Position numbers and translations under genes: made by a program
Assembly (NCBI GenBank): GCA_964036295.1
Contig: OZ038463.1
Location: 31,759,295-31,823,294, forward strand
Direction of reading: 5' to 3'
From: Plumapathes pennacea
Taxonomy: Eukaryota > Cnidaria > Anthozoa > Antipatharia > Myriopathidae
Length of the DNA stretch: 64,000 nt
Part shown: positions 1 to 64,000 of the stretch, piece after piece
Numbering within the stretch: position 1 is the first letter of the stretch
How the letters are laid out: each line of letters opens with the position of its first letter
The notes under the pieces: model-generated
What the model saw: only the letters and a program-made list of their open reading frames with translations
The model's database searches: none
Told to the model about the DNA's origin: nothing

Positions 1-314
1 ACCACCTACCGGAGGAAATCATGTACGCTTGACTGAAAGGTGTCTGAAACTGGTTAAAGACACGTATTGCCACGCATATTTCCGACAATGCCGTATCTCA
101 TCTGATCCTCAGCCAGTTTGCAGAGAGGCCTGCGAGAGAATGAACTTCAAAGTTTGTAAAGAAGTATTTGAGTATGTTAAAAAGTACAACAACGCTACTC
201 GTAAAAATGATTTAAAATGGAGAATACTTGACTGCACCAAGATGCCAACACAGAATTTGTCCAACTCAAAACACCAAGGAGAACAAGAGTGCTATAACCC
301 AGATGAAATTCGAG
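1..314 (+). CDS. Gene 1 CRD exon (3' part)
   Basis: Reading from base 2, this gives the second half of a Frizzled-type cysteine-rich domain, with the motifs YCHAYFRQC, PVCREACERM and VCKEVF. The exon ends at CGAG|GTACGG in phase 1. In genes 2 to 4 the homologous exon is 551-557 nt, so roughly 240 nt of it are missing to the left. Confidence 0.85.
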
Positions 315-3300
315 GTACGGAACATAACTCCCGCGGGGAATGGGAGGGGGTACTCCTTCTAATTTTAAGCTGGGGTGTGCTGCACGGTTCTCCAGACCCT
401 TATCCTATGTTAGACCAAATGACACAAATTTCCATACCCTATTTCACACTTCAAAATGTGTCCCTATTGGCAGCTTGCACAATTTTATTATTCAATTCCC
501 AGACCAGAAAGACAAAATCTAAACTCTAATTCAAACCAAATTGTCAAAATTCTATACCTTTTTCAAACTAAATGCTTAAAAACGATATCCTATTGCGCGG
601 CGCATACCTATATGGTTCATACATGGGAGTACCACCCCCCCCCCCCCCCCTCCCCTTCCCCCAAGGGACGTTACTGTGCAATAGACAATTAGTCCCAACC
701 AGTCAGTCAAGTCAGCTGGTCAGTCAGTATAAACCTGAATCTAGAAAGAAAAACGGTTTACAATTTTCGCACACTGCTAAATCAATCGATTGGTTTATCA
801 AAGTGGGAACAAATTGGAAATTACAAAAAAATGTTTTCGTAAGCTGAACCTTTGCGTTTGGTACTGTAATTATTTTGATTTTGGTGTTTGATATAGTCAT
901 CAGAAACCCTCTCTATACAAATTGTAATTTTGATATCAGAAACAAATAATATACTCAGAGGAATAACTTGGTTATTGTTTTTATTATAATAGATCAACTG
1001 GACAAACTGGCGAGTACAGGTAACATTATTTGTTATTGCCAGTAAATATTGTAATCGCTTTTACTTATTGAATTCTCCTTGGTGTGTCTCTTTTGGCTGA
1101 AAGTTTCCCAAACATCTCGCTCATATCATAAGCTACAGCCCTTGTTGATAACTCAGCCCAGTCCTCTAGATATTTTCAATTCAGGAGTCGTGAATATACT
1201 TTTACTATACATTCAGCCCTAAACAAAGGACAACAGACATGATTTGTGCCTGTCACACAACAATGTTGGAGAGCGGAATACCAAGACAAATTGTGTGTGC
1301 GTTGTCAAATTTATGTTTTTGACGTTGTCAAGCGGGTGAGGAAATAAATCTTCTGAAGCCTAGGATTGTAGTTTACATGTGGAATCTAACGAGTGGGTGC
1401 CATGTGACTCAGTGTTGCGTTAGGCTCTCTGTGTTGAAATACTACACTGTTTATATATTTTGTTACGTTTCGAATATACTTTTAAATAAGAAATGATGTG
1501 CCCCTAGTAAACGCTGAGACGTTTTAACTCCTAAGCTCAGAATGTCAATTATCCCAACGTTACCATAACTATTAGACATTTTACGAGTGATAAAATGAGT
1601 ACTGATGCCTAAATCAACGTTTATATAGCCATAGTGTCAAATGCCAAATTCTCCATACTGTAAAATATATATCTGACCAATGAGAGACTATAACGAGCAA
1701 ATGGATTACTTTTGGGAGGGTTAATTGGTGACGTGATTAACATATCTCACCGAAAAGTTCGATTACTAGTCATTCACTTGTGCATTACCAACTTTTTAAT
1801 TCATAGATTGTTATTTCGGAATCGGGGAAGGATACAGAGGAAACATCAGCGTTACGACCTCGGGTTACACCTGCCAGTCATGGAAGAACCATTTTCCGTA
1901 CAAACACCCAATAAACGTGTCAATGTATCCTGAGCTGGCAGCGTCAAACGCCTCAAATTTATGTCGAAATCCAGGGGGACTGGGGACAAAAGGTCCATGG
2001 TGCCTCACGACAAACCCGAATGTCACGTGGGAATACTGCGCTGTGGAAAAATGTCCAAAGCAAGGTGGGGGGGGACATATTATACGACACATACTGGCCG
2101 CACACAAATTGCCCATGTAAAGCGTTAAAATTATTATGTCGACATAAAACGGCATAACAAAGACTAAAAAGAATGGGTTCTGGTACTGTTATACTTTCTC
2201 TCAGCATAGCTCACAGTTTTTCATGTGTTGCATCGTGAAAGCTGAGGTTACGGAATGGTCTACACAACCATATAATGTTAGTGAAACTTTTGTTATGTTT
2301 TACGCAGGTCCAAGTCGTGCACCAAGACAAATCAAAGCATGGAATACCAGTTCGACAAGTATCCAACTAACCTGGGAAGAAATCCCACAAATTTATCGCC
2401 ATGGTATTCTTCAGGAATATCACGTGACGTGTAGGACGGTTAACAGTTTAGAATGGTTCTTTACTCGGGTACCTTCCACTTCCCACGCTGGTAATTTATC
2501 TGGACTCGAGAGTGGTACTACTTACAACTGCCGTGTCAGGGGCGTTAGTAATTTTGGAAATGGAACTTGGAGTGGCTTCGTAAATGTGTCAACCAGTGAA
2601 CTGAATGGTAAGTATTTATCGGCATTTATTGAGTCGGGTGGAGTGGCTTCGTAAATGTGTCAACCAGTGGTAAGTTTCTACTGGCCTTTATTCAGTCGGG
2701 TGAAGTATTTACGTTTCAAGAGAATGGCAGAATGACAGAATGACTGAATGGCAAAACGTTTTCACTAGTTTAAAAGATTATTCGTACAGCTTCAATACAA
2801 TACAGGTGTTTTAAAAAATATGCTAATTATTTTCGAACTGGTCGACAAAGCTGGAATACTCCCTTATTTTTGTTCTGCTTTGTTTCACGAGTAAAATTGA
2901 AGAATAGATATGGTTGTCGAAATTAAAATGGGTTCTATTTTACAAGTCAAAATCGTTTTATAAGTTAAAATGTAATCATAATAGTTAATTTTCCATTTGA
3001 AAATAAGAAAGACCTGTTGAAATGTGAGTTGAGTATATGCTAGGCTATGAATGTGATAAACGCTACTACTCTTTCATATAATAAGCCCCTCAGTTTCAAA
3101 GGCGAGGCTAGCGTAAACTTAATCCATGAGCTAATTTCATCTATTTAATTTGTCTGCAGAGGAAATGATCGACATTAACAAAGAAAATACTGCAAGTGAA
3201 GAATCATGGATAAAAACAGGTTATGATATGTGTACAGTCAACTCCTTAATGGACATCCCTTTAAGTCGGACACCTCTCTAAGACTTGGTAGTAACCGCTC

Positions 3301-5463
3301 CTACCATTGATTCATGAGTCATTTCCTATAAATAAACTCTCTTTATTGTGAGTGACAATATTAAGTGCTTATGGTATTCCTGACGTCATTTCCGTTGGTC
3401 GGCATTCATCGTATTGAATTGAGTTAAAATATTACAAAGTACATGTGCAAAGCATTTAGTTTCCAGTTGTGCACAACTTGTCTTAGATAAATATTCAACT
3501 AACTTTTGCTTGAGTATGACATTATACTGAAGTTGTATTTTTCCCTGGTATATCCTGTGACGAGTCAAAAAAAATTATGGTGTTTGGAAGGCCCTTGGAA
3601 ATACTCGAATATGCATTCACTCAGATTTATCTTGTCCAGCGGTTTTTAACGAAATCGCGCTTGAGCGCTTGTTATGATTTTATCTGCAGGGTTTAAGGGT
3701 CTCATATACATCACAGCAGTATTGTACAACTGTACATGACGTTTCTGAACAGCGATTTGCTGAATATTTGCTGAATATTTCGAATAACTCCTACCACATT
3801 TTAAAGAAGAATTTCTTTGCAAACATTCATCGGTTTGACCTGAAAATCACTGTGGAGAGTTGACATGCATAGTTCTGTGCAATAATTATGACTTTTGTAT
3901 TTGATCTATAAGTTCTATAGGTCTGTAAGTTGTAGTTAAGCCCTGTCCATATTTCCATGATACTGACATAACTACTTTGTGCTTGATAAAACGATCCATA
4001 ATTGATGTTTCTGCACAGCGATTTCCGGGTGAAACTGATGAACATTTGATCTGAAATTCACTGTGCAAGGCTGATATGCATAGTTCTGTGCAATAATTAT
4101 GGCTTTTGCATAATTAATATAATTAAATACAATATATTTATTTGTATTTGATCTATAAGTTCTATAGGTCTGTAAGTTGTAAAACAGGTTGGATATGTGT
4201 ACAGTCAACTCCTTAATGGACATCCCTTTAAGTCGGACACCTCTCTAAGACGGACACCTGGTAGTAACCGCTCCTACCATTGATTCATGAGTCATTTCCT
4301 ATAAATAGACTCTCTTTAAGGTGTATATCTTTTTAAAACGGACAATCTTTTTTCACAGATGGAATACTGGCAATAATAGCGGGATGTGTTGCAGCTGCTA
4401 TTCTTGCAGGCGTTGCTTTATTAGCATACTATCGCTACCGGAGAAATGGAACAGAAAATCGTGAGTGACATCATTAACTACTTGTAGTATTATCTGACGT
4501 CATTTCCGTTGGCCAGCATTTGTCACATTTAATTGAGTTAGAATTTTACAATGTACATGTGCAAAGCATTTAATTTCCAGATGTGCGCAACTTGTCTTAG
4601 AAAACTATTCAACTAACTTTTGCTTGAGTAGGACATTACTACATCAGTTGTATTTTTCCTTGGTATATCCTATGACAAAAAATATCTTGGTCTATAAGTT
4701 GTAGTTAAACCCTGTCCATATTTCCATGGTATTGACATAACTACTTTGCGCTTGATAAAACGATCCATAATTAATGTTTCTACAAAGCGATTTCCGAGTA
4801 AAATTGATGAAGATTTGATCTGAATTCACTGTGCAAGGCTGATATGCATAGTTCTGTGCAATAACTATGTATTTTGCATAATTAATATAGTTTAATAAAA
4901 TTTATTTCATGTTTACAGAGATTCAACCTGCAGTGGCTCCTTATGCAATCACTCACATAAACGAAATTTTCGAACCCTTCTATGAAGAAATCAATGAAAC
5001 CGCGACTCATCGATTCAAGTCTAGATACGTGAACTTGAAAATCGACGGTACCCTTAACCTCCCTTCGCATCTCCAAGACGCATTTATTGACTTCGAGCAG
5101 CTTTACGAGAACCTGCGCTACGAGCGGCTAAAGGACATCCAACCAAGACGAAGGTCTTTTAGCGGCGCCGTTGATGAACATGGCTATCCCGTCTATGACG
5201 TCTTAACACATCCATTATGTTTCAATCCCAACCAAAAAGTGACAATCCACAACAAACACCCACAAAACCCAAGCCGGCACGAAACCTCAAGAAAGCGATC
5301 GGCATCTGTTGACCTTTGCCAAGTGAGGGCGTTTGCCGAGGCTTTAGAGCGATTTGGAAATAAAGCTGGGGCTACTGGAGAACGTTGTGGCTATGAAAAC
5401 ACGGGAAACAACGGCATCCTCAACCTCTCTCCCCGTTTTCAAGACACATTGCCAAGCAACTAA
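1..5463 (+). CDS. Gene 1: ROR-like CRD-kringle-FN3 single-pass receptor (5' part outside window)
   Basis: Seven exons can be joined: 1-314, 993-1019, 1807-2064, 2308-2607, 3160-3219, 4359-4460 and 4919-5463. They give 534 in-frame residues and a stop. Order: rest of a Frizzled-like CRD, micro-exon, kringle with six Cys, FN3, acidic stalk, TM helix and a cytoplasmic tail without a kinase fold. All internal junctions are phase 1 with GT/AG sites, and the same borders recur in the other copies. Signal exon, exon 2 and the start of the CRD lie before the window. CRD plus kringle is the ROR/MuSK ectodomain order, so a Wnt-type or other secreted ligand is possible (inference). No disabling lesion is seen. 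Its last exon keeps what appears to be the ancestral reading frame at the C terminus. Confidence 0.85.
340..665 (+). repeat. MITE-like repeat in the post-CRD intron, gene 1
   Basis: The block starts at GGGAGGGGGTACTC and ends in a C-rich inverse (GGGAGTACCACCCCC). It contains several degenerate ACCCTATTTCAGACC units. The same block sits at the same place in genes 2, 3 and 4 and elsewhere in the window. Reading frames that run on from the CRD exon into this block are artefacts. Confidence 0.7.
993..1019 (+). CDS. Gene 1 micro-exon (27 nt)
   Basis: It is flanked by TATAATAG and GTAACATT and encodes DQLDKLAST with phase 1 on both sides, so it can be skipped without changing the frame. The peptide and both splice sites recur in genes 2 and 3. 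It joins the CRD to the kringle. Confidence 0.75.
1807..2064 (+). CDS. Gene 1 kringle exon
   Basis: This 258-nt exon is phase 1 on both sides. It encodes a complete kringle with six Cys (CYFGIG, CQSW, CRNPGG, WCLT, YCAV, KCP) and the family signature CRNPGG..GPWC. It is closest to ROR-type kringles by motif. One difference from genes 2 and 3 is WCLT in place of WCFT. Confidence 0.88.
2308..2607 (+). CDS. Gene 1 fibronectin type III exon
   Basis: This 300-nt exon (acceptor TTTTACGCAG, donor AATG|GTAAGT) encodes one FN3 domain. Visible signs are the PSRAPRQIKAW start, the SIQLTWEEIP strand with its core Trp, and the Tyr of TTYNCRVRGVSNFGNGTWS. Several N-glycosylation sequons are present (NLS, NGT, NVS). 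Confidence 0.87.
2575..2672 (+). repeat. Duplicated FN3 exon end with a second splice donor
   Basis: The last part of the FN3 exon (GTGGCTTCGTAAATGTGTCA) is repeated about 66 bp downstream with its own GTAAGT at 2670. Reading on to the second donor meets a TAA at 2652, so using it would truncate the protein. It is probably inert. Confidence 0.7.
3160..3219 (+). CDS. Gene 1 juxtamembrane stalk exon
   Basis: This 60-nt exon lies between TTTGTCTGCAG and GTTATG and encodes an acidic, Thr/Ser-bearing stalk ending EESWIKT. It is phase 1 on both sides, and genes 2, 3 and 4 keep the same exon. Confidence 0.75.
3229..4190 (+). repeat. First half of a ~960-bp tandem duplication, TM exon lost
   Basis: Sequence from GTGTACAGTCAACTCC through the intron that normally follows the TM exon occurs here and again from 4197. 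In this first copy the end of the intron and the whole TM exon are missing: CTCTTTATT runs straight into GTGAGTGACA at about 3350. The second copy keeps the exon. Confidence 0.65.
4359..4460 (+). CDS. Gene 1 transmembrane exon
   Basis: The acceptor is TTTTTTCACAG and the donor AATC|GTGAGT. It encodes a helix of about 22 residues (GILAIIAGCVAAAILAGVAL) followed by the basic stop-transfer YYRYRRN. This fixes a type I single-pass topology with the kringle and FN3 outside. Confidence 0.88.
4919..5463 (+). CDS. Gene 1 cytoplasmic tail exon
   Basis: The final exon has acceptor CATGTTTACAG and stops with TAA at 5461. The roughly 181-residue tail has no kinase motifs. It carries FYEEI, RYVNL, LYENL, RYERL and YPVYDVL, plus the basic serine motifs RRRSFS and RKRSASVD. 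The phrase DGTLNLPSHLQD near the start recurs as NGILNLSPRFQD near the end, which suggests an internal duplication. Confidence 0.88.
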
Positions 5464-9860: not shown

Positions 9861-10520
9861 GGAGCTCTTGGAAATAGTCGAACATGCCTTCACTGATTCA
9901 TCTTGTCCAGCAGTTATTGGTAAAATCGTACCGCAGCGCTTCTGATAATTATATAATTTGATCAAATTCTGCAGGATTTAATGGTCTCATATACATGCTT
10001 ACATGACAACAGTGTTGTACAACTGTACATGTCACGTAAATTTTGCACATTGATTTGTAAACAAGGATTTCTTTGCAAGCATTCATCAGTTTGACCTGAA
10101 AATCACTGTGGAGAGTTGACATGCATAGTTCTGTTCAATAATTATGACTTTTGCATTTGATCAGAGTCTATAAGTTGTAGGGACCTTATCCATGATTTCA
10201 TGGAACTGACATAGCACTACTTTGCGACTAATAAAAAATCCACAATTGATGTTTCTGCACAACGATTGCCAGGTGAAATTGATAAACATCTGACCGGAAA
10301 TCATTGTGCAGGGCTGACATGCATGATTCTGTGCAATAATTATAGCTTTTGCAAATTAATCTAATTAAATACAATCTATTTCATGTTTACAGAGATTCGA
10401 CCTGCAGTGGCTCCTTATGTAGTCACTCACATAGACGAAATTTTTGAATCCTTCTATGAAGAAATCAATGAAAAGGCGACTCATCGATTCAAGTCCAGAT
10501 ACATGAACTTAACATATTTT
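9860..10520 (+). pseudogene. Relic of another receptor copy: last intron plus truncated tail exon
   Basis: The sequence aligns with the intron before the tail exon in genes 2 and 3, then with the tail exon itself. An acceptor TTTACAG is followed by codons for IRPAVAPYVVTHIDEIFES and FYEEINEKATHRFKSRYMNL, after which homology stops abruptly at about 10514. No upstream receptor exons precede it. The break is within about 3 codons of the break in the gene 2 tail, and the 3' flanks match as well. Confidence 0.75.
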
Positions 10521-12342: not shown

Positions 12343-12745
12343 TCAAACCTTATATACAGACACAAGATTTCGCCGTTAATTAACGGCGAGATTTTCTGTC
12401 TGTATATAGGGACACAAGATTTCGCCGTTAATTAACGGCGAGATTTTCTGTCTGTATATAGGGACACAAGATTTCGCCGTTAATTAACGGCGAGATTTTC
12501 TGTCTGTATATAGGGACACAAGATTTCGCCGTTAATTAACGGCGAGATTTTCTGTCTGTATATAGAGAGACACAAGATTTCGCCGTTATTTAACGGCGAG
12601 ATTTTCTGTCTGTATATAGGGACACAACATTTCGCCGTTAATTAACGGCGAGATTTTCTGTCTGTATATAGAGGGACACAACATTTCGCCGTTATTTAAC
12701 GGCGAGATTTTCTGCCTGTATATAGAGAGACACAACATTTTGCCG
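12343..12745. repeat. Left palindromic array, 7 full units plus 1 partial
   Basis: Palindrome cores begin at 12371, 12423, 12475, 12527, 12581, 12633 and 12687, with a broken one near 12737. The core is CGCCGTTAATTAACGGCG or the near-palindrome with TTATTTAA. Cores are joined by AGATTTTCTGTCTGTATATA and a short GGGACACAA-type link. Confidence 0.9.
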
Positions 12746-12824
12746 TTATTTACTTTGGAATACTTGGGAAGACACTTTTCTGCACACAGAGGAACGCAAC
12801 GTGTTTTTATTTTTGTATACACTG

Positions 12825-13378: not shown

Positions 13379-14419
13379 TCATTTAACTAGAAGTCTGACG
13401 TCCGGGCTATTTATGGTGGGAATCCAATCTTCTTCTTCGGGTCTTGTTTCTGTCTCATGGAACTTCACTAGATAGCCCTTGTTTCTGTTGTATGCCACTA
13501 TTGTGCCTTTGAACCATCCCAGATAATTTGCCTTTCCGTCTAATTCTTCCTGGTACTCTACCTCCACTGATGCGTTTATCAATGCTCGACCTGTTTTCCT
13601 TTTTGGCCTAAAAAATGTGTCCAACCTGCGCCGCTTGTCGGGAGGTGTTTGGTCCATCACCGGCTCTACTTGAATGAGGCTGGACCGCTTTCTCTTTTTC
13701 CTTTGTGGGTTGCCTGCTTGACTTCGCACAGAGTACTCTGTGCTTATGTTTTGCTCTGTTGCGACCATTTTCACGGCGTGCAATCTGTCCTCAAGATAAA
13801 TGTTCCGCAAAAGGACAGATATGTTGCTGCAACCTTCTTTTATCGATTGCCTGTTCAACGATTCCACTGGATTGTTGGTATTGGGTGCGCTGTCCCACTC
13901 ATCAGTATCTCGCAATGTAAATGCTTTACAAAACATTCGTAGAATCCTCTCTCTGGTCCACCAATTCACCCAGTGTTCTGCTTTGTTCCAGTGAATAATC
14001 ATGACGTTCTGAAAACGATCGAAATTTTCAGCAGCCAGAAGATGTTGTGCTCGGGCTATAGGCTCTTTCCCACATAAGATACTAAACGTTAACATAACGT
14101 CCTCTTTGTTCGTTAGATGTTGAACCTGATATGCCAGGATCTGAAATGCATCAAATTCTTCTTTTGTGTTTGTCACAATGTTGTTCACCCGATTTATGGA
14201 CTGCTTCCAATGAAAACTGCAGCCTCTCAACAGTTTTTTAGTAAGATCTGCACCAATTCCGCTTTCGAAACCATTGTACTCTGCCTGGTCAAAATCAACC
14301 ATTATTTGGCGAAGATGTTTCCCATTTTTAAAGCTTGGGTAGAGTTTGTCCACGTGCTGGAACACCTGGGTAACTGCAGTCGAATACGAGTTTCCATCTT
14401 GTTTATTACAAACGCTGCA
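13379..14419 (-). CDS. Mutator-like (MULE) transposase, C-terminal exon
   Basis: The open frame runs from an acceptor (TATTACAG, minus strand, first base 14419) to a stop at 13379, about 346 codons. Near the start are [11 protein letters not shown] and [13 protein letters not shown], which fit the MULE-domain acidic residue and its C..H..Q block. [11 protein letters not shown] matches the usual late transposase motif. A basic stretch (RKKRKR, DKRRR) looks nuclear. The last ~65 residues ([20 protein letters not shown]) resemble a Tudor/agenet-like barrel. A stop lies just before the acceptor, so this exon cannot start translation from its own ATG. The upstream exons, with the first catalytic Asp, are not in the element. 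Confidence 0.75.
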
Positions 14420-14649
14420 CTGTAATACTTGTTAATTCCTTAGTCCTTATTGTCACGGAAACTGATTCAAATGCTATCATGTCAATGTCGTAATAATGAA
14501 GTCGGAAATTAGTTCATAAACAACAACAAACTTTTTTTTTCTTTTTAGTCAAGGGGTTATTACACGGCAGGGAGTGCAATATGGCGGCGTATTTTTACAA
14601 GTCGGTTTTATTTTTTCGTTTTTTCTCTTTTTCTCATTTGTTCGAGCCT

Positions 14650-15595
14650 GCGGCAAATCTCGCCGTTAAATAACGGCGAAATGTTGTGTCTCTCTATACA
14701 GACAGAAAATCTCGCCGTTAAATAACGGCGAAATGTTGTGTTCCTACCTATACGGACAATAAATCTCGCCGTTAAATAACGGCGAAATCTTGTGTCTCTC
14801 TATACAGACAGAAAATCTCGCCGTTAAATAACGGCGAAATGTTGTGTCTCTCTATATACAGACAGAAAATCTCGCCGTTCAATAACGGCGAAATGTTGTG
14901 TCTCTCTATGTACAGACAGAAAATCTCGCCGTTAATTAACGGCGAAATGTTGTATCTCTCTATATACAGACAGAAAATCTCGCCGTTAATTAACGGCGAA
15001 ATGTTGTGTCCCTATATACAGACAGAAAATCTCGCCGTTAAATAACGGCGAAATCTTGTGTCTCTCTATATACAGACAGAAAATCTCGCCGTTAATTAAC
15101 GGCGAAATCTTGTGTCCCTATATACAGACAGAAAATCTCGCCGTTAAATAACGGCGAAATGTTGTGTCTCCCTATATACAGACAGAAAATCTCGCCGTTA
15201 ATTAACGGCGAAATCTTGTGTCCCTATATACAGACAGAAAATCTCGCCGTTAAATAACGGCGAAATGTTGTGTCTCTCTATATACAGACAGAAAATCTCG
15301 CCGTTAATTAACGGCGAAATGTTGTGTCTCTCTATATACAGACAGAAAATCTCGCCGTTAATTAACGGCGAAATGTTGTGTCCCTATATACAGACAGAAA
15401 ATCTCGCCGTTAAATAACGGCGAAATCTTGTGTCCCTATATACAGACAGAAAATCTCGCCGTTAAATAACGGCGAAATGTTGTGTCTCTCTATATACAGA
15501 CAGGAAATCTCGCCGTTAATTAACGGCGAAATCTTGTGTCCCTATATACAGACAGAAAATCTCGCCGTTAAATAACGGCGAAATGTTTCGTCGGT
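14650..15595. repeat. Right palindromic array, 18 units
   Basis: Eighteen cores were counted, from 14661 to 15563, spaced 52 or 54 bp apart. Cores are CGCCGTTAATTAACGGCG or the near-palindrome with TTAAATAA. Linkers read GAAATGTTGTGTCTCTC or GAAATCTTGTGTCCC plus TATATACAGACAGAAAATCT, the reverse complement of the left array. Short frames across it (reading YRQKISPLINGEML) are repeat artefacts. Confidence 0.92.
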
Positions 15596-29286: not shown

Positions 29287-29850
29287 CCGGTTCCTTTTTT
29301 ATCATTATATAATGAAGAAGGAACCTTGAAACCATCATTCTTAACATAATATAATTCACTTTTGACACAATTGAAGCTCAGACTTGTACGGATACTTTGT
29401 AGAATGATACTTTGTACGCTGCCGAAGAGAGGTTTCCGGTTTCCGGTTCCCGGTTCCTGTTCCGGTACACTAGGCAGTCATGTGACTCTTTGCGGTTTGC
29501 GGGCTGCTGTGACCTAAGAAACACGTCCTGTTTGCTGAAGGAAGCAAATTCTGAAATAACTGGAGCTTTTACAGTATTTGACTTACCTAAGGATTACTTT
29601 CTAGTGTTGAAAGTGTAACAGAAATATGGCAGACTTGACGTGTGACTTTTCCAGTTTAAGGTTTGAGTGTTGCTGAATACGGCAATCTTAAAACTCTCTA
29701 TTATTCGGTACATACGGAGTCAAACTGATGCAAGGACTCGGTTTCAAAGACTATAGCAATAAATACACTATACGGAATGGCTTTGGCTTCGCTTCTATGG
29801 CTGTGCGGCTATCATTTTTGCACGATGTTATTTATCTTTGCGGCATCCAT
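29287..29850 (+). other. 3' flank of gene 2, shared with 10.79-12.26 kb
   Basis: No gene is seen. It parallels the flank of the 9.86-kb relic but lacks the pogo-like and Mutator-like insertions. Confidence 0.5.
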
Positions 29851-48500: not shown

Positions 48501-51500
48501 ACATGGTTTTTGCCTGTCACACAACAATGTTGGAAAGCGGAGAACCAAAACAAATTGTGTGTGCGTTGTCAAGTTTATGTTTTCGACATTGTGGAGCGGG
48601 TGGGGGCCGTGAAGGTTGTGGTCAGGGGGGATACATAACCAATGAATCTGTGAGCTGAGAGCCGTTCAGGATACTGTGTCCCACACAATTTTGTCTAGGA
48701 TTGTAGTTTATATGTGGAATCTAACAAGTGGGTGCCATGTGACTCACAGAGTTGCGTTAGGTTCTCTGTGTTGAAATACACTTTATAAAATAAAACTTAT
48801 ATAACGAGCGCTCTGATTGGTTCCCAACCGTGTTTACATGAAGCTATGTAACACGGAAAATGTGTTATATTGCTCTGAGGTTGCGCAGTGGGACAAATTT
48901 TTGGACTGCTCGATTTTAGTGAAGTTCCCGATTCTTCATTTGACCTGAGTTTACGAGAAAAACAAGAAATTGTAAGCCTCTAGCAAAGAAACGACAATGG
49001 CTGTTGTGGCAGAAGGAATGACTGATAAAAGATTAATATTTAGTGCTGGGCAGAAACAGTTCGCTAACACTCGAGTTTCTTTGAAATAACAGCGGAAAGG
49101 ATAAGTCCACTGAATTGTAAAACTGAGCAACAGGCAACTTACAGTGAACACTGAAAACCGAACGATAATTTACAGTGCATTTGTACATTCAGTTGTGTTC
49201 TCGTTTGCTCGCGACCCACTAAATACAATTCACTGATGAATTCGGTACCTCTTTAATACACCACAAACGCGAATAAATACAGTAACTGTCGGTTCATCAA
49301 AACTCAGTCCCATTCAGGAATACGTGTAAACAAAAAACGTAAAGTAATTACAAGTACATAAGTGATTACGGCACTGCAAAACATTCATCCGTTCAACTCA
49401 GTCCGGCGAAAAATCGACGTGACTTCTTAAAACATCTTGTGAAAGGTCATCTACTTGTACCACCCCAAAATCAGTTCTGGACGAGACGTCGGACAAGTGG
49501 AGCAGAAAGTAATCATAGCGAAGTAGCTTTCCAAACGTTGTGTTTATATTAATTTTAGTGCAGTTCACATCGCTTACTTCAATCGGCACAGCAGAAGATT
49601 CACTAGCTGCTCGGCCAGTTTAAAACAGCGCTCTGCTTTGGATACTACAGAAGCACCAACCGAGCCTAGGGAAGTTCAATTTGGGAGTCATTGATAAAAT
49701 GACCTTTTGATCATTCATTTCTCCAGCATTTGCAAGTTTGTAGTTTGAAGATTTGAAAACTTGTCTCGTCCGCTCGGCACAACGATCTGTGATTGGTTTC
49801 AGTTTGTGTTGAGAATTTCGACTTTGACAATCACGTAAAACGGTCGTTTTTGCGGTAGTATTGCTGTCAATTTTATAAAAGAAATATAAAACGCTTGCCG
49901 TGTTTAAATATTTTGTTAAGTTTCAAATATACTATAAATAAGGAATTATGTGCCCATAAGCTCAGAATATCAATTCTCCAAACGTTACCATAATTATAAG
50001 GTATTTTACGAGTGATAAATCAGCGTTCATGTAACCATAGTGTCAAATGTCATTTTCCCGTACTGTATAATATTATATATCTGGCCAATGAGAGACTAGA
50101 ACGAGTGAATTGATTACTTTTGGGAGGATTAATTGGTGACGTGATTGACATTTCTCAACTCTATGTTTAGAAACCGAAAAGCTCAGTTACTACCGGGGAC
50201 TTTATCCTGTAAATTATACATGTACCAGTCTTTCACTTCTGTGTTACCAACTTTTCATAGAGTGCTATTTCGGAATCGGAGAAGGGTACAGTGGAAACAT
50301 CAGCGTTACAATTTCAGGCCACACCTGCCAGTCATGGAAGAGTCAGTTTCCGCACCAACACCCAATAAACGTGTCAACGTATCCTGAGCTGGCAGCATCA
50401 ACAAATTTATGTCGAAATCCAGGGGGACTGGGGACAGAAGGTCCATGGTGCTTCACGACAAATCCGAATGTCACGTGGGAATACTGCGCTGTGAAAAAAT
50501 GTCCAAAACGAGGTAGGGGAGTATTATAGGACGCATGCTGGCAAACAGCGTTAAATTTATTATTGGAGGTCGACATAAAACTGCATAACAAAGAATAAAA
50601 TTAAGAAGGGCATTCTGGTAACGTCATACTTTCTTTCAGCACATTTTACAGTTTTTCATGTCACTTACATCGTGAAAGTTGAGGTTGAGGCCATGGTTTA
50701 CACAATCATGTACATGACACTTTGTTATGTTTTACGCAGGCCCAAGTCGTGCACCAAGACAAGTCAAAGCATGGAATACCAGTTCGACAAGTATCCAACT
50801 AACCTGGGCAGAAATCCCACAAAAATATCGCCATGGGGTTCTTACAGAATATCACGTGACTTGTAGGACGGTTAACAGTTTAGAATGGTTCTTTACTCGG
50901 GTACCTTCCACTTCCAACGCTGGTATTTTGCCTGGACTCGAGAGTGGTGCTTACAACTGCCGTGTCAGGGGCGTCAATAATTTTGGAAATGGAACCTGGA
51001 GTGACTTCGTAAATGTGTCAACCACTGAACTGAATAGTAAGTATTTACCGGCCTTTATTGAGTCGGGTGAAGTATTTACCTTTGGAGAGAATGGCGGGCT
51101 TGCATCAAAGGGGACCACTTATTATATTAATAACAGTTTTCTATTGGTAAAATTAAGTTTTACAACAATTTCCGCTAAACCGCGAGAAAAATTAAATCAT
51201 TATACATGTAACTTGCGATAGATCTAGTTTCGAATTGCTTTCAAAACTTGTTCTCTAGTTTAAAAGACTATTCGTACAGCTTCAATATAATACAGGTGTT
51301 TAAAAAAAGGCCAGTTAGTTCCGAATTGTTCGACAAAACTTGAACGCTCACTTACTTTTGTTCTGCTTGGTTTGACGAATAAAATTGAAGAATGGATGGT
51401 TATCGAAATTTAAATGGGTTCTATTTCACGAGTCAAAATCGTTTTAGAAGTTAAAATGTAACTCTAAAGACATTGAAACCGAAAGTAATTACAATAAATA

Positions 51501-53399
51501 ATCTTCCATTTGAAAATAAAAAAGACCCGTTGAAATTTGTGTTGAGTATGCTGGGCCATGAATGTAATAAGCACTACAACTCTTTCAAATAATAAGCCCC
51601 TCATTTTAAGCGAGGCTAGCGTAAGCATAATCCATGTGTTCATTTCATTTCTTTTATTTGTTTGCAGAAGAAATTCTCACTACTGACATACTAGGAAAAA
51701 CTGCAAATGAAGAATCACGGATAAAAACAGGTTGGATACGTGTACAGTCAACTCCTTTTTCTAAGACGGACACTTGGTAGTAACCGCTCCTGCCATTGAT
51801 TCATGAGTCATTTCCTATAACTGAACTCTCTTTAGACGTACACCTCTTTAAAACGGACATTCTTTTTTCACAGCTGGAATACTGGGAATAATAGCGGGAT
51901 GTGTTGCAGCCGCTATTCTTGCAGGCGTTGCTTTAATAGCATACTATCGTCATCGGAGAAGAATACGTGAGTGACATCATTAAGTGCTTATAGTAGTCCT
52001 GACGTCATTTCCGTTGGCCGGCATTCATCGTATTGAATTGAGTTAAAATATTACACTTTACATGTTCAAAGCACTTAATTTCCAGTTGTGCACAACTTGT
52101 CTTAGATAAATATTCAACTAACTTTTGCTTGAGTATGACATTATACTGAAGTTGTATTTTTCCCTGGTATATCCTGTGACGAGTCAAAAAAACATATCTT
52201 ATGGTGTTTGGAAGGCCCTTGGAAATACTCGAACATGCCTTCACTGATTTATCTTGTCCAGTGGTTATTGATGAAATCGTACCGCAAAGCTTCTAATAAC
52301 ATAATTTGATCAAGGTCTATGGTCTTCTATACATGTTTACATGACAACAGTATTGTACAACTGTACATGACGTTTCTGAACAGCGATTTGCTGAATATTT
52401 GCTGAATATTTTCGGATAACTCCTACCACATTTTAAAGAAGAATTTCTTTACAAACATTCATCGGTTTGACCTGAAAATCACTGTGGAGAGTTGACATGC
52501 ATAGTTCTGTGCAATAATTATGACTTTTGTATTTGATCTATAAGTTCTATAGGTCTGTAAGTTGTAGTATAGCCCTGTCCATATTTCCATGGTACTGACA
52601 TAACTACTTTGTGCTTGATAAAACGATCCATAATTGATGTTTCTGCACAGCGATTTCCTGGTGAAACTGATGAACATTTGATCTAAAATTCACTGCGCAA
52701 GGCAGACATGCATAGTTCAGTGCAGTAATTATGGCTTTTGCAGAGTTAATATAATTAAATGCAATTTATTTCATGTTAACAGAGCTTCGACGCACAATGG
52801 CTCCTTATGCAGTCATTCACATAGACGAAATTCATGAACCCTTCTATGAAGAAATAAATGAAAGGGCGACTCATCAATTCAAGTCTAGATACGTGAACTT
52901 GAAAATCGACGGTACCCTCAACCTCCCTCCGCATCTTCAAGACGCATTTATTGACTTCGAGCAGCTTTACGAGAACCTACGCTACAAGCGGCTAGAGGGC
53001 ATCCAACCAAGGCGAAGGTCTTTTAGCGGCGCCCTTGATGAACATGGCTGTCCCGTCTACGACGTCTTAACACATCCATTCTGTTTCAATCGCAACCAAA
53101 AAGCCAAAGTGACAAACATTTGTCCAACAATCCACAAAAAACACCCACAAAACCCAAGCCGACGCGAAGCCTCAAGAAGGCGATCGGCATCTGTTGATCT
53201 TGGCCAAGTGAGGGCGTTTGCTGAGGTTTTAGATTTGGAAATAAAGCCGGGGCCATTGAAGAACGCTGTGGCTATGAAAACACGGGATATGACGGCATCC
53301 TCAACCTCCCTCCCCGTCTTCAAGACACATTGCCAAGCCACTAAACTTGAGGAAAACCAAAGCAAACTAAGTTTGTTAACCTTGACCAAGATATTTTAG
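30487..53399 (+). CDS. Gene 3: complete ROR-like CRD-kringle-FN3 receptor, kinase-less
   Basis: Nine exons: 30487-30550, 42964-43009, 43370-43923, 48257-48283, 50261-50512, 50740-51036, 51668-51730, 51874-51966 and 52783-53399. They sum to 2013 nt, which is 670 aa plus stop, with every junction in phase. Order: signal peptide, short Cys linker, Frizzled CRD, micro-exon, kringle, FN3, stalk, TM, ~205-aa tail. ROR proteins have a kinase after the TM; this one has a tyrosine-motif tail. Intron 1 is 12.4 kb and holds several transposons and an antisense kinase exon. A likely AATAAA follows the stop at 53459. A cell-surface receptor or adaptor role is inferred. One oddity is a 4-nt deletion near the C terminus relative to gene 1. 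Confidence 0.87.
30962..31094 (+). repeat. MITE-like repeat cut by an insertion
   Basis: The CCCTATTTCAGACC block begins as elsewhere but is interrupted at GACTCCAAAAA by GGTATCAGGAGACGTT, the end of the next element. Confidence 0.65.
32004..32046. repeat. Perfect 21-bp-arm palindrome
   Basis: CCCTGCCGATGTTCCCGATT and on, with its exact inverse, is separated by a single base. No role is known. Confidence 0.85.
32330..33570 (-). repeat. ~630-bp tandem duplication
   Basis: The unit at 32330-32938 is repeated at 32948-33567 with few changes. On the minus strand each unit has an open frame beginning MVS.FALLSSQKYFVSPQ and containing TEPNGVEF. Part of the unit also occurs at 9.78-9.86 kb. I do not recognise the peptide, and repeat origin is most likely. 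Confidence 0.75.
34145..34523 (-). CDS. Protein kinase C-terminal exon and 3' UTR (minus strand)
   Basis: Reading minus from about 34523: SIGHLETAEECLVFQANKEN then PDDRPTVDELARFLTEYI and a stop at 34403. NPDDRPTVDEL is the kinase subdomain XI motif with its invariant Arg, and the length to the stop suits the end of the C-lobe. The exon probably starts at the acceptor-like CGAAACAG. A polyadenylation signal AATAAA (minus strand) lies at about 34160. Upstream kinase exons were not found in the window. It lies antisense in intron 1 of gene 3. Tyr versus Ser/Thr type cannot be told. Confidence 0.55.
34530..35600. repeat. ~150-bp tandem array next to the kinase exon, about 7 units
   Basis: CAGAGTCACAGCCTTTCAGC recurs at about 34619, 34773, 34920, 35078, 35228, 35383 and 35534. 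Each unit also includes TGAAGCATCAAGAAACAA and, on the minus strand, the first codons of the kinase exon (SIGHLEAAEEL). The array therefore arose by duplication across that exon's start. Confidence 0.88.
35601..37430. other. Segment without a supported gene
   Basis: Several open frames of 60-126 codons occur on both strands (for example 35919-36299 minus) but none has a recognisable domain. AAAATGGCGCGAACATCGCC at about 36140 looks promoter-like. It may hold further exons of the antisense kinase gene. Confidence 0.3.
37609..38816. repeat. 1.2-kb segment with inverted TATA-containing ends
   Basis: TTAAACACGAAGACGCGGTA followed by TAAAAGG on the left is mirrored by CCTTTTATAGCGCGTCTTCG..TTTAA on the right. 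Each end carries a TATA-box-like TATAAAAGG pointing inwards. AATAAA and TTGGCGCCCGAG occur inside (37710-37890), which recalls an LTR and primer site. No ORF is recognised. Confidence 0.45.
38817..42140. other. Rest of gene 3 intron 1, mostly repeats
   Basis: No gene is supported. 41010-41120 matches 33580-33670. 41740-42150 resembles 7590-8130 and 58530-59075. The 40649-40930 frame (hydrophobic IFIIFTFAFFFVQL segment) is overlapped by an equal-sized frame on the other strand and has no known domain. Confidence 0.35.
42148..42369 (-). other. Minus-strand peptide conserved in gene 4, possible exon
   Basis: FRFYFFTDVTFTRSSEKLTY-type sequence (LNIRFYFFTDVTFTRSSEKL, then TYSLIAPNIDASQLFIRP) is repeated at 57135-57310. 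There it reads LNIRFYLFVDVTFNRSSEKL and TYSLFAPTSDALQLFIRP, with changes mostly conservative, but flanking parts are frameshifted. It could be an old exon or a repeat-encoded peptide. Not recognised. Confidence 0.3.
42470..42900 (+). repeat. Conserved block upstream of exon 2, gene 3
   Basis: It is the counterpart of 19640-20060, including AAAATGGCGGCGTTGCGGCC at about 42780. It ends about 60 bp before exon 2. Confidence 0.45.
42964..43009 (+). CDS. Gene 3 exon 2 (Cys-containing linker)
   Basis: This 46-nt exon (CTCTCATCAG / GTAAGACG) reads AHTVSQTATECGHRTK once joined to the signal exon. Phase 1 in and phase 2 out match the neighbours exactly. Confidence 0.78.
43370..43923 (+). CDS. Gene 3 Frizzled-like CRD exon
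   Basis: This 554-nt exon (acceptor TTATATTAG, donor CGAG|GTACGG) encodes the complete CRD: CVPYTQIF, GYCQEVLGNKMVYGTA, ECLNLVDDMYCHAYFPQC, PVCRQACERM, VCKEVF, LDCTTMPTQNLS. Sequons NGS, NVT and NLS are present. Confidence 0.9.
43950..44275 (+). repeat. MITE-like repeat in the post-CRD intron, gene 3
   Basis: It has the same start, units and C-rich end as in genes 1, 2 and 4. A run of about ten AGTCAGTC-type units follows at 44300-44370. Confidence 0.7.
44686..44823. repeat. ~136-bp near-perfect palindrome
   Basis: TTCGATGGTTTAGCGCGTAA to CCCCGCCG is followed directly by its inverse, with almost no loop. It is probably a foldback element. Such DNA is unstable in cloning and assembly. Confidence 0.88.
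45850..45878. repeat. CACT microsatellite
   Basis: About seven CACT units (ACTCACTCACTCACTCACTC). It is simple sequence and the length is not reliable. Confidence 0.85.
46400..46917. mobile_element. MITE with GGCCCCGTCCACACGTATCC ends
   Basis: Inverted ends GGCCCCGTCCACACGTATCC and GGATACCTGTGAACGGGGCC enclose three ~98-bp direct units (GTCCACACGTATCCGG at about 46407, 46505 and 46604) and inverted pieces of the same. No transposase is present. Confidence 0.75.
46919..47140. mobile_element. MITE with GGTGTTACACTGGTCGATTT ends
   Basis: GCTGGTGTTACACTGGTCGA on the left and TCGACCAGTGTAACACCACC on the right are inverted copies. It directly abuts the previous MITE, with TTAA/TTTA at the outer edges. 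Confidence 0.75.
47263..47642. repeat. ~190-bp tandem duplication
   Basis: TTGAAAACAAGAAACACGCT to CGCCTTTTTTTGTGTG occurs twice in a row. The 153-codon frame spanning it repeats itself and is not a gene. Confidence 0.85.
48257..48283 (+). CDS. Gene 3 micro-exon (27 nt)
   Basis: It encodes DQLDKLPST between CTTATAACAG and GTAACATT, phase 1 on both sides. Confidence 0.77.
48785..49915. repeat. 1.1-kb insertion in the micro-exon to kringle intron, gene 3
   Basis: The other copies run directly from GTTGAAATACACTGTCT to the AAATATTTTGTTA region. The insert begins ATAAAATAAAACTTATATAA and ends TTTTATAAAAGAAATATAAA, imperfect inverted ends like those of the foldback elements at 54.77 and 28.27 kb. 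The minus-strand frame 49398-49589 is not recognised. Confidence 0.55.
50261..50512 (+). CDS. Gene 3 kringle exon
   Basis: This 252-nt exon is two codons shorter than in genes 1 and 2 (AASTNLCRNPGG) but in frame, with all six kringle Cys present. The acceptor is CTTTTCATAG and the donor CGAG|GTAGGG. Confidence 0.9.
50740..51036 (+). CDS. Gene 3 fibronectin type III exon
   Basis: This 297-nt exon is one codon shorter than its paralogues (SGAYNC for SGTTYNC). It keeps PSRAPRQVKAW, LTWAEIP and FGNGTWSDF. The donor is AATA|GTAAGT, which makes the next codon Lys. Confidence 0.9.
51668..51730 (+). CDS. Gene 3 stalk exon
   Basis: This 63-nt exon (TTTGTTTGCAG / GTTGGATA) encodes EILTTDILGKTANEESRIKT, one codon longer than in the other copies. 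Confidence 0.78.
51874..51966 (+). CDS. Gene 3 transmembrane exon
   Basis: It encodes AGILGIIAGCVAAAILAGVA, LIAYYRHRRRI: a TM helix plus basic stop-transfer. The acceptor is TTTTTTCACAG and the donor ATAC|GTGAGT. Confidence 0.9.
52783..53399 (+). CDS. Gene 3 cytoplasmic tail exon
   Basis: This ~205-residue tail has no kinase domain. It contains FYEEI, RYVNL, LYENLRY, CPVYDVL, RRRSFS and RRRSASVD. After AEVLD a 4-nt deletion relative to gene 1 shifts the frame, so the last ~45 residues (from LEIKPG to LTLTKIF) differ from gene 1. In the unshifted frame a second DGILNLPPRLQD would appear. It stops with TAG at 53397. Confidence 0.87.
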
Positions 53400-59610: not shown

Positions 59611-60161
59611 GTGTGTTTTGACGAGACCAGTTAGAAGTCCCCGTAATTTTCCATTGCTTAACTGCGTCCCATACACGCATAAATTTCCGAATGGACACTG
59701 TCGAGAGGTGCTAGGGAACAAGATGATCTATGGGACTGCGGACCGACTGGAAGCTGACGAAGAGTCTCTTACAAAGTACAGAGCTGTTTACCATCTAATG
59801 ATAACGCTGTTTGGTATGCCAATCAACGGCAGCAAAGATACCATGATAAAATCAACTTCTGGAGGAAATCCTGTACGCCTGACTAAAAGATGTCTGAAAC
59901 TGGTTGATGACATGTATTGCCACGCATATTTCCCACAATGCCGTATCTCGTCTGATCCTCAGCAAGTTTGTAGAGAGGCCTGCGAGAGAATGAACTTTAA
60001 AGTTTGTAAAGAAGTACTTGAGTCTATTGAAAAGTACAACAGCGATACTAACGTTGATTCAAAATTTAGACTTCTAGACTGCACCAAGATGCCAACACAA
60101 AATTTGTCCAACTCAAAACACCAAGTAGAACAAGAGTGCTACAAGCCAGATGAAATCCGAG
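59611..60161 (+). CDS. Gene 4 Frizzled-like CRD exon
   Basis: This 551-nt exon has acceptor TTATGTCAG and donor CGAG|GTACGG. It keeps an open frame with CVPYTHKF, GHCREVLGNKM, RCLKLVDDMYCHAYFPQC, QVCREACERM, VCKEVL and LDCTKMPTQNLS. All the Cys present in gene 3 are kept. Confidence 0.82.
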
Positions 60162-60179
60162 GTACGGGACATAACTTCC

Positions 60180-61252: not shown

Positions 61253-61276
61253 AGGGGGGGGGGGGGGGGGGGGGGG
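61253..61276. repeat. Poly-G run
   Basis: About 23 G in a row between GAGGGAGG and TTGGGGCGG in the gene 4 intron. Only the other copies' shorter G-rich stretch is present at this site elsewhere. The length is unreliable. Confidence 0.85.
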
Positions 61277-61862
61277 TTGGGGCGGAGTGGTGGAGGGGGG
61301 ATACATAACCATTGAATCTGTGAGCCGAGAGCCGCTCGGGAGACTGAGTCCCACACAATTTTGTTTAGGATTGTAGTTTTTATGTGGAATCTAACGAGTG
61401 GGTGCTATGTGACTCACGGTATTGCGTTAGGTTCTCTGTGTTGAAATACACTGTCTAAATATTTTGTTACGTTTCAAATATACTCTAAATAAGGAATGAT
61501 GTGCCCCTGGTAAACCCTGTTTGAGACGTTTAACTCCTTAGCTCAGAATATCAATTCTCCAATCGTTACCATAATTATAAGACATTTTACGAGTGATAAA
61601 ATGAGAATTGATGCCTCAATCAGTGTTTATGTAACCATAGTGTCAAATGCCAAGTTCCCCGTACTGCATAATATATATCTGGCCAACGAGAGAATAGAAA
61701 GAGCAAATTTATTATTTTTGGGAGGGTTAATTGGTGACGTGAATGACATTTCTCAGCTCTATGTTTCGAAACCGAAAAGCTCAATTACTGCAGGGAACTT
61801 TAGCCTGTAAATTATACTGACATGCACAAGTCATTCACTTGTGTATTACCAACTTTTCATAG

Positions 61863-62077
61863 ACTGCTATTTCGGAATCGGAGAAGGATACAATGGAAAC
61901 ATCAGCGTTACAACTTCAGGTTACACCTGCCAGTCATGGAAGAGCCAGTTTCCGCACCAACACCAAATAAACGTGTCCATAATCCAGGAGGAGTGGGGAC
62001 AGGAGGTCCATGGTGCTTCACGACAAATCGGAATGTCACGTGGGAATACTGCGCTGTGGAAAAATGTCCAAAACGAG
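61863..62077 (+). pseudogene. Gene 4 kringle exon with frameshift
   Basis: Splice sites are normal, but the exon is 215 nt against 258. The 43 missing nt, after AACGTGTC, remove the third kringle Cys region and shift the frame, leading to a stop within the downstream intron. Confidence 0.85.
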
Positions 62078-62195
62078 GTAGGGGAGTATTATAGGACGCA
62101 TGCTGGCAAACAGCTTTAAATTTATTATTGGAAGTCGACATAAAACTGTATAACAAAGGATAAAATAAAGAAGGGCATTCTGGTAACGTCATTTA

Positions 62196-62400
62196 ACAAA
62201 CTGACGTCAGTTTTTTATGTGTCTGTCCTCTTATTGATCATGAAACGCGTCATAACATTGTCAAAAAGTTGTGGATCCACGAGCCGCTTCGCCGAGTGGA
62301 TCCGCAACTTTTTGACAATGTTATGACGCGTTTCATGATCAATAAGAGGACAGACACATAAAAAACTGGCGTCAATTTGTTTTTTACAATAACAAAACTC
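62196..62400. repeat. Foldback hairpin that replaced the FN3 exon of gene 4
   Basis: Arms of about 80 bp (CTTATTGATCATGAAACGCG and its inverse) flank CCGCTTCGCCGAGTGG. It stands where the intron end and first ~260 nt of the FN3 exon should be. Confidence 0.85.
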
Positions 62401-62440
62401 AAGCGAAGACGCGGAGAAAACACGCAAGAAAACTGGATTT

Positions 62441-62477
62441 TGTGACTTCGTAAATGTGTCAACCATTGAACTGAATG
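62441..62477 (+). pseudogene. Gene 4 FN3 exon remnant
   Basis: Only the last 37 nt (GTGACTTCGTAAATGTGTCA to CTGAATG) and the donor GTAAGT survive. They are nearly identical to gene 2. Confidence 0.85.
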
Positions 62478-63570
62478 GTAAGTATCGGGTGAAGTATTTA
62501 CGTTTGGAGAGAATGGCAGGCTTGGATTAATGCGGACCACACACTAATTGTATTGGTAATTATATAAAAGTTATTTTTGATGATTGCTGTTAATCGTGTT
62601 TCTTCTGCCCCAATTATCTTTTGGTAAAATAAAGTTTTTGCAACAGTTTCCACTAAATGTGGAAGATTAAATTGTTATACACGTAACTTGCGATAGATCT
62701 GTAGTTGCGAATTGCTTTCAAAACTTTTTTCTTAGCTTAATTTAACTGTTTATTCGTACAGATTTAATAAAATACATGTGTTTTGAAAAGGCCAGTCCTT
62801 TCCGAATTGGTAGACAAAGTTGGTACTTGTTTTTGTTTTGTTTTGTTTCACAAATAAAATTGAAAAATGGATGGTTATTGAAATTGAATAGGTTCTACTT
62901 CACGAGTCAAAATCGTTTTAAAAGTTAAATGTATAACTCTAAATCGACATTAAAACCGAAAGCAATCATAATGATCAAATTTCCAATTGAAAATACAAAG
63001 ACCTGTTGAAATGTGAATTAAGTATATGCTGGGCTATGAATGTGATAAACACTTCGTAAACATAATCCATGTACTCATTTAATTTCTTTTATTTGTCTGC
63101 AGAAAAAATTATCACTACTGACATAGTAAATACTGCAAGTGAAGAATCATGGATAAAAACAGGTTGGATACGTGTACAGTCAACCTTCTTAATGCTATCC
63201 CTTTAAGTCAGACGCCTCTCTAAGACGGACACTTGGTAGTAACCGCTCCTGCCATTATCTTATTCATGAGTCATTTTCTGTAAGTGAACTTGTTTTTAGA
63301 CGTATACCTCTATAAAACGGACACTTGGTATAGTAACCGTCCCCGCCTCTTTAAGGCGGTCTCGACAAAGGTTCTTGTGTCCCTCAAAAATATTCTGGGA
63401 AAAAATCATTGTAGCGCTGCTGTTTAAGATATATACACGTGTTATACATTGTTGTAAAGCCGGTCTGAGACTGAAGAATGCAGATCCGCTATTAAATTTT
63501 TCATACACGTTTAAGATAGCGTGCGGTCTAGATCAGAGAGACAAAAGATTTCCGCTAAAAATTAGGCTTT
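62478..63570 (+). repeat. Segment nearly identical to gene 2 25475-26580
   Basis: The intron, stalk exon and start of the pogo-like element match gene 2 almost base for base, much closer than to genes 1 or 3. This points to a recent duplication or gene conversion. Confidence 0.75.
63103..63162 (+). CDS. Gene 4 stalk exon
   Basis: 60 nt, TTTGTCTGCAG / GTTGGATA. Reads KIITTDIVNTASEESWIKT and is intact in itself. Confidence 0.6.
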
Positions 63571-63574
63571 GCCG

Positions 63575-63915
63575 AAGCGGCTCGTGATTTTGAACTTTTT
63601 CTCGTGTTCTCCCAACATCCCGCGTGTTTATATAAGAGTACATAGACATGGAAACTCGTGTTATATTGCTTAAATATTACACGCTGACGCGATACGCGAT
63701 GTTTTTTACTTGATTAATTATTTTATAAAAGAAATATATAACGTGTTCCCGTGTAATATAGCCTCATCTAAACACTTGGGAAGTTGGGAGAACACTCGAG
63801 TAGTGCCGGAAACCACTCGGCGGCCTCGTGGTTTCCTTACGCTACTCTCGTGTTCTCCCAACTTCCCGCGTGTTTAGATGAGGCTATATTACACGGTGAC
63901 GCGTTATATATTTCT
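63575..63915. repeat. Second copy of the 28.3-kb foldback element
   Basis: Arms at about 63756-63801 and 63842-63888 match the gene 2 copy closely. Here it has cut into the pogo-like element after TAAAAATTAGGC. Confidence 0.8.
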
Positions 63916-64000
63916 TAAACTTAATTAGAAAATAAATAAAATTATTAAACTATTAAACTATTTAACTAACTTTTTCTTGAGTATGACATGAATCTGCAGT

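Follow-up and report, generated by a model that had tools for sequence, protein, structure and literature searches.

Tandemly arrayed kinase-less ROR-like receptor genes with a conserved multi-tyrosine tail

Four head-to-tail units in the window

The stretch analysed here, called the window, comprises 64 kb of contig C2 (C2:31759295-31823294) in a genome of 290 Mb on 24 contigs, and it carries four units arranged head to tail on the + strand, whose matching stretches share about 78-96% DNA identity. Three of them, genes 1-3, give open models of one receptor-like architecture, in which a cysteine-rich domain (CRD) of the Fz type is followed by a kringle, a fibronectin type III (FN3) domain, a stalk, a transmembrane (TM) segment and a tail without a kinase; of this architecture we are virtually certain. 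The exon order is a short cysteine-bearing exon, CRD, micro-exon, kringle, FN3, stalk, TM and tail, and scripted splicing joined these into open frames of 535 letters including the stop for gene 1 (counted from the window edge), 499 letters for gene 2 and 649 letters for gene 3. Every internal exon of genes 1-3, the 27-nt micro-exon included, is preceded by AG and followed by GT; all junctions after the CRD, including both ends of the micro-exon, are in phase 1, and the junction before the CRD is in phase 2.

All features described below lie on the + strand at window positions unless a contig or strand is named, and those of genes 1-3 rest on the spliced models together with the evidence given. 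For gene 1 the window opens inside the CRD exon (2-314, ending in a GT donor), the full CRD starting upstream at C2:31759107. The gene 1 micro-exon (993-1019, AG/GT and in frame) encodes DQLDKLAST and is followed by the kringle (1807-2064, Pfam E 4.1e-21), FN3 (2308-2607, E 1.8e-14) and stalk (3160-3219) exons, the TM exon recognized by its hydrophobicity (4359-4460), and a tail exon that was also found by the tail search and carries the full multi-tyrosine tail and the stop (4919-5463). Gene 2 has, in the same order, the short exon before the CRD, which is part of the Cys linker and was placed by comparison of the copies (21263-21308), the CRD (22566-23122), micro-exon (23886-23912), kringle (24682-24939, E 1.1e-21), FN3 (25175-25474, E 6.2e-15), stalk (26112-26171) and hydrophobic TM (27969-28067) exons, and a truncated tail exon (29135-29287) that retains 41 initial residues and, of the putative docking motifs, YEEI and YVNL, before a short novel end and stop. 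Gene 3 starts with a short exon placed in the same way (42964-43009) and continues with the CRD (43370-43923, Fz E 6.4e-9), a micro-exon encoding DQLDKLPST (48257-48283) and the kringle (50261-50512, E 4.7e-24), FN3 (50740-51036, E 2e-11), stalk (51668-51730), TM (51874-51966) and tail (52783-53399) exons; the C-terminal end of this tail is read in a different frame from those of genes 1, 6 and 7. The gene 3 model contains a single strongly hydrophobic stretch, the TM segment, with a mean Kyte-Doolittle value of 2.63 against 0.71 for the next best. The Fz profile scored above its cut-off of 32.1 bits in gene 3 (36.8 bits) and copy 4 (37.4 bits), and about one bit below it in gene 1 (31.4 bits) and gene 2 (31.1 bits).

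The fourth copy is decayed and does not keep the full exon set. Its CRD exon is open (59611-60161, Pfam Fz E 4.1e-9), but the acceptor of its micro-exon is changed, and its kringle, traced by Pfam scan and copy comparison, is a remnant split over two frames by an internal deletion and a frame change (61863-62077). Of the FN3 exon the last ~35 bases and the donor are left, as read from the sequence (62442-62477); they adjoin a palindromic (foldback) insert lying at the expected place of this exon (62195-62385). A stalk exon was located by copy comparison (63103-63162), no credible match to the TM was seen (best E 3.4), and the tail lies 587 bases past the window end, at C2:31823881. Between genes 1 and 2, the tail search and DNA self-alignment also detected an orphan tail fragment of 39 residues with its acceptor and 5' flank (10393-10511).

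A preliminary description of the window had proposed at least four copies sharing a signal, a Cys linker and the further parts named above. This observation is largely real and is confirmed in part: order and splicing hold in genes 1-3, where everything from the Cys linker to the tail lies in open spliced frames (in gene 1 from within the CRD) and where Pfam recovered Fz, Kringle and fn3, Fz just under its cut-off in two genes, but the fourth copy is decayed and the tail of gene 2 is short. No signal-peptide exon was identified in the window. The copies share the 46-nt exon that precedes the CRD, but a signal peptide in the open frame before 42964 of gene 3 was rejected because its hydrophobic stretch, just upstream of that exon, corresponds to an ATT repeat in two other copies.

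The family across the genome and its relation to ROR and MuSK

The genome-wide profile searches scored the best candidates only, and all family counts are lower bounds. The kringle search returned at least 20 rows, 14 of which belong to the window family and fall at 13 loci, and the CRD search agrees (14 of at least 21 rows, at 13 loci). The family thus has at least 13 CRD/kringle loci, at least 11 of them in a two-strand array spanning 289 kb of C2 (31.759-32.048 Mb), which bears out the tandem expansion proposed earlier, and at least two on C4. In the C2 array at least seven loci of type A lie on the + strand and at least four of type B on the - strand. The first FN3 domain (FN3-1) is present at at least 12 of the 13 loci; type A has this one FN3, whereas three were counted in each of the six type B and C4 genes examined.

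A query with the tail reached further, returning at least 24 rows at 22 places. Thirteen could be assigned by position to CRD/kringle genes, one of them (B3, a type B copy) disrupted by a frame change as well as an internal stop, and four more lie in the array without an assigned ectodomain. The others are at C2:31.125 Mb, C2:31.204 Mb and in three genes on C7 (18.27-18.37 Mb), which are spaced ~48.4 kb apart and two of which have identical tail translations. The C7 genes have FN3 pieces upstream of the tail, and no CRD or kringle row occurred at them among the matches listed. Over 32 residues their membrane-proximal FN3 resembles that of the insulin receptor (E 1.7e-6), which we treat as a lead only. 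We also noted a SEFIR domain of the IL-17-receptor type (E 1.1e-11) that shares its strand with the tail copy at C2:31.125 Mb and lies upstream of it.

The ectodomain resembles those of ROR and MuSK, as had been suggested. In PDB searches the gene 3 CRD alone matched human ROR2 (9fse) best, weakly (E 0.00094), while CRD and kringle together matched the same chain at E 6.8e-29 over residues 71-249 of 252; 9fse is the best match covering both domains, and multi-kringle chains of plasminogen and HGF rank higher on the kringle alone. The seventh and eighth CRD cysteines (Cys7-Cys8) are separated by seven residues in 9/9 family CRDs examined and in both ROR genes on C5, and by six in two other CRD-kringle genes, on C10 and at C2:24.01 Mb. 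According to a passage of PMC6938638, this spacing is seven in receptor tyrosine kinases (RTKs) and six in Frizzleds, and the CRD disulphides are Cys1-Cys5, Cys2-Cys4, Cys3-Cys8, Cys6-Cys10 and Cys7-Cys9. All ten cysteine columns are present in the five complete type A CRDs examined and eight in one type B locus (B1) and both C4 loci (C4a, C4b), where Cys1 and Cys5 are both lost; this joint loss, as expected of disulphide partners, supports the assignment of the CRD fold. Separately, the kringles of types B and C4 carry an extra cysteine in a QCPH/KCPH motif, which is also found in the C10 and C2:24.01 kringles.

We placed the family in an unrooted tree of CRD plus kringle (12 sequences, WAG+G4, model fixed). 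The RORs, human ROR2 among them, form a clade (100/100) with the window family outside it, the C10 and C2:24.01 genes pair (86.4/86), and the RORs together with this pair split from the window family at 97.7/97. The kringle alone also set the window family apart (97.8/99) without holding the RORs together. Because it is separate from the ROR clade in the CRD plus kringle tree, the family is better called ROR-like than ROR minus its kinase. A simple ROR that lost its kinase was rejected as the likely history, given this position and the existence of ROR-type kinase genes: C5 holds at least two genes that combine Fz, kringle and kinase, and for one of these the named chains closest to the kinase, after one labelled EGFR, are ROR2, ROR1 and MuSK.

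The claim that the window genes lack a kinase held. Each of genes 1-3 runs in frame from the TM into a tail exon closed by a stop codon; tblastn with a C5 ROR-type kinase returned no window match, even at E up to 10, and the genome-wide PF07714 search, limited to the best 140 of 1166 candidates, listed no kinase row in C2:31.1-32.1 Mb. A missed kinase exon was rejected, as neither tblastn with the genome's own ROR-type kinase, in the window and at the loci, nor the best 140 of 1166 candidates of the genome-wide Pfam search gave a match there. No Ig exon turned up upstream of the family CRDs, where no search was aimed at Ig domains.

Two other CRD-kringle genes stand out. At C10:514919-518704 a clean gene model reads CRD-kringle-FN3-FN3-TM-TIR, with splice sites in matching phase 1 as read from the sequence and a TIR exon ending in a stop; its TIR domain matched TIR_2 at E 2.7e-29 and, as best PDB match, a Toll-receptor-related TIR at E 1.3e-30. 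The second (C2:24011500-24019000) has the Frizzled-like Cys7-Cys8 spacing; no C-terminal part was recovered for it, and a kinase located downstream is encoded on the other strand. We also noticed four Fz domains within one 646-residue open frame at C1:39894199-39895959. Among the papers listed from open-licence PMC, none describes, by title and start of abstract, kinase-less CRD-kringle-FN3 receptors or CRD-kringle-TIR proteins, in line with the earlier remark that the order with FN3 and a non-kinase tail is not known as a described family, and a term check did not find 'kringle' in the main text of PMC12549020, PMC8260672, PMC5094078, PMC4632063 or PMC13319465.

The multi-tyrosine tail and its constraint

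The preliminary description was right that the tail is not a kinase but missed its nature, which is that of a conserved module. Six tyrosine columns are invariant among the 17 tails compared, which come from types A and B, from C4 and C7 and from two additional C2 loci (one of the columns is covered by 16 tails). Of the 88 covered core columns as a whole, 28 are invariant, which gives for six of six tyrosine columns a hypergeometric probability of 0.0007 when the kinship of the copies is ignored. The tyrosines stand in the contexts YA, Y(E/D)E(I/V), YxNL, YENL, RYxxL/F and PxYD(V/A/T), and most but not all tails also carry the basic-serine sites RRRSxSG and RxRSxSVDL. A YxxI/L-x(6-12)-YxxI/L pair is present in 15 of the 17 tails, an arrangement that arose in 2.5-3.6% of 5000 shuffles for each of four tails. 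Identity with a strict immunoreceptor tyrosine-based activation motif (ITAM) was rejected for types A, B and C7, in which the 6-8 spacing is absent.

The module matched no family in the libraries searched: the gene 1 tail had no Pfam match at E <= 1 and none in NCBIfam, one C7 tail had no Pfam match at E <= 0.1, and the PDB offered the tail nothing better than E 1.7. The motif YEEI is preferred by the SH2 domain of Src, and YxN by that of Grb2. Judging from these motifs, the tail probably serves as a docking site for SH2 domains. An SH2 domain and a tyrosine kinase share one open frame in a Src-like arrangement at C6:12236606-12237706.

Selection was estimated by maximum-likelihood M0 fits with custom code (16 fits, p values uncorrected). 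Across classes, omega was 0.19 for the tail core (nine sequences, likelihood-ratio test (LRT) statistic 84, p 5e-20), 0.25 for the kringle (p 6e-13), 0.50 for FN3-1 (p 7e-5) and 0.66 for the CRD (p 5e-4); within type A the kringle gave 0.50 (p 0.025). Constraint thus acts on the tail and the kringle, while no part evolves faster than the CRD.

Proposed function, alternatives and known systems

The proteins are single-pass surface receptors whose outer part consists of a CRD of the RTK type, a kringle and either one FN3 or, in the second type, three, and that cross the membrane once. The earlier interpretation is supported in part; the roles it named for the expansion, Wnt sensing, self-recognition or microbe recognition, are conjectural. 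Ligand binding or clustering may lead a Src-type kinase to phosphorylate the tail in trans, and the pYEEI, pYxN and paired YxxI/L sites would then recruit SH2 proteins, so that the receptor could act like an ITAM-type or adaptor-type receptor. The CRD would be its variable recognition surface, with non-self or self cues likelier than one fixed developmental ligand; this is suggested by the tandem array, by the birth and death of copies, and by a fast CRD beside a constrained kringle and tail. The rapid change of the CRD suggests recognition without proving it, and we regard such a role as quite possible. The chain as a whole, from kinase-less receptor and trans-phosphorylation to SH2 docking and a recognizing CRD, appears plausible but falls somewhat short of probable. 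In its favour are the clean splice models of genes 1-3, the CRD-kringle-FN3 order found again in the second type (on the - strand of C2, and on C4), the conserved tail tyrosines, the SH2-kinase frame on C6 and the C10 ectodomain joined to TIR.

Several results weigh against this chain. Strict ITAMs, YxxL/I-x(6-8)-YxxL/I, occur in only two of the 17 tails, both from C4, and the two C7 tails counted lack even the pair with 6-12 spacing. The gene 3 tail has a sub-threshold DTX3L match (Pfam E 0.055), which we take as chance. No kinase with tandem SH2 domains (Syk) was established in the genome, no charged TM residue that would pair with an adaptor was seen, and the AlphaFold predictions for the CRD (mean pLDDT 43) and the tail (40) were of unusable quality. 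Within type A, omega of the whole CRD was 1.26 (p 0.29 against 1); its first 75 columns gave 1.90 (p 0.044) as a post hoc partition among 16 uncorrected tests, and columns 76-168 gave 0.94. With this single post hoc partition nominally above 1, we do not claim positive selection on the CRD. The LRT was not significant for the type A FN3 (0.76, p 0.46) or tail (0.67, p 0.053), and expression, phosphorylation and ligand are all predictions from sequence.

Alternatively, the products might be ROR-like proteins without a kinase that act as co-receptors or decoys for a developmental ligand such as Wnt; their CRD-kringle would present the ligand to Frizzled while the tail only scaffolds. The seven-residue Cys7-Cys8 spacing, shared with RTKs by the rule given in PMC6938638, and the ROR2 match over CRD and kringle would fit this. 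The birth and death of copies, a CRD whose omega lies near 1 or exceeds it and stronger constraint on the tail core than on the ectodomain would be unusual for a developmental co-receptor, however, and the family is not grouped with the RORs in the tree. Moreover, the CRDs of ROR2 and MuSK lack the lipid groove, so that binding of Wnt cannot be assumed, and we consider this alternative unlikely.

Receptors for allorecognition, combining polymorphic CRDs with an activating tail in an animal of colonial or encrusting habit, would also explain clustered, fast-changing paralogues with a constrained signalling tail. The known cnidarian allorecognition genes, Alr, have Ig-like ectodomains, however, and we consider this role distinctly unlikely here. 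An array that is largely in decay, has little function and persists through duplication and gene conversion would account for the broken copy 4, the cut tail of gene 2, the damaged B3 tail and the several tails without an assigned ectodomain, but it is hard to reconcile with three open models in the window, with the retention of every internal splice dinucleotide of genes 1-3, or with the low omega of the tail core across classes and of the kringle across types, and is very unlikely. Ordinary ROR receptor tyrosine kinases with missed kinase exons, for which the scoring of just the best 140 of 1166 kinase candidates genome-wide speaks, are extremely improbable in view of the stop-ended tails in frame after the TM, the C5 kinase query without a window match and the separate ROR-type kinase genes on C5.

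To return to the main reading, these genes show ROR-type ectodomains uncoupled from kinases, tandem-expanded and joined to other outputs, namely the tyrosine tail and TIR, which bears on the origin of recognition receptors. In PMC5978004, the finding that Syk and the CARD-CC/Bcl10/paracaspase complex occur together is taken to imply ITAM-containing receptors upstream of Syk, and cnidarians are named among the Bcl10-bearing animals. If the tail works as we read it, the family offers a concrete, testable candidate for these tyrosine-motif receptors in animals that have Syk and this complex, cnidarians included. A wider proposal would see in it the expansion, in a non-bilaterian animal, of activating receptors for immunity or self-recognition that resemble ITAM receptors and are built on an RTK-type CRD-kringle-FN3 ectodomain, with the same tail on at least two ectodomain types, the FN3-bearing C7 genes included, a TIR cousin and RTK ectodomains re-used without the kinase, its members being candidates for the inferred ITAM receptors upstream of Syk and that complex; as a whole we find this proposal doubtful and offer it tentatively.

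The remainder of the window is repeat-rich in places. Two satellite-like arrays in opposite orientation (12351-12752 and 14655-15587) consist of 52-54-bp units, mostly 91-97% alike, and a 350-residue open frame of transposon-like look lies on the - strand at 13379-14431, with a weak Agenet match below the cut-off (E 0.00064). A tandem duplication of 0.6 kb with 94% identity occupies 32326-33575, a tandem array of about seven copies of a 156-bp unit lies at 34487-35612, and self-complementary stretches were read by eye near 28300-28445 and 63750-63890. Rfam and tRNA scans of the 64-kb window gave no matches. The mitochondrial cox1 of the source genome reads TGA as Trp and has an intron with an open reading frame inside the gene, a combination typical of hexacorals and also found in some sponges; it supports a cnidarian origin without proving it. 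GFP, sought as a taxonomic marker, gave no match, a result that does not indicate its absence.

Among known systems, ROR1/ROR2 and MuSK share with the window family an RTK-type CRD, with seven residues between Cys7 and Cys8, followed by a kringle and a single TM. The window family differs in having no kinase or pseudokinase, an FN3 between kringle and TM, an unrelated tail, and a branch of its own apart from the ROR clade. ITAM and hemITAM immunoreceptors include CD3, FcR gamma, DAP12, Dectin-1 and Draper. They are alike in lacking a kinase and in having paired YxxI/L sites and other SH2-type tail tyrosines, whereas in the window family the spacing is mostly 11 instead of 6-8, six tyrosines are conserved, the ectodomain is CRD-kringle-FN3 and phosphorylation is a prediction. 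Frizzled and the secreted Frizzled-related proteins have the Fz-type CRD in common with it; unlike Frizzled, the window family has one TM (in the gene 3 model) and no 7TM domain, and it possesses a kringle and FN3. Kremen (kringle-WSC-CUB) is likewise a kinase-less kringle membrane protein but has neither CRD nor FN3. Finally, compared with the Toll/IL-1 receptor-type proteins, the C10 relative joins the same ectodomain order, with two FN3s, to a TIR domain, so that CRD-kringle-FN3-FN3 stands where those proteins have leucine-rich repeats or Ig domains, while the window family itself has no TIR and ends in the multi-tyrosine tail.

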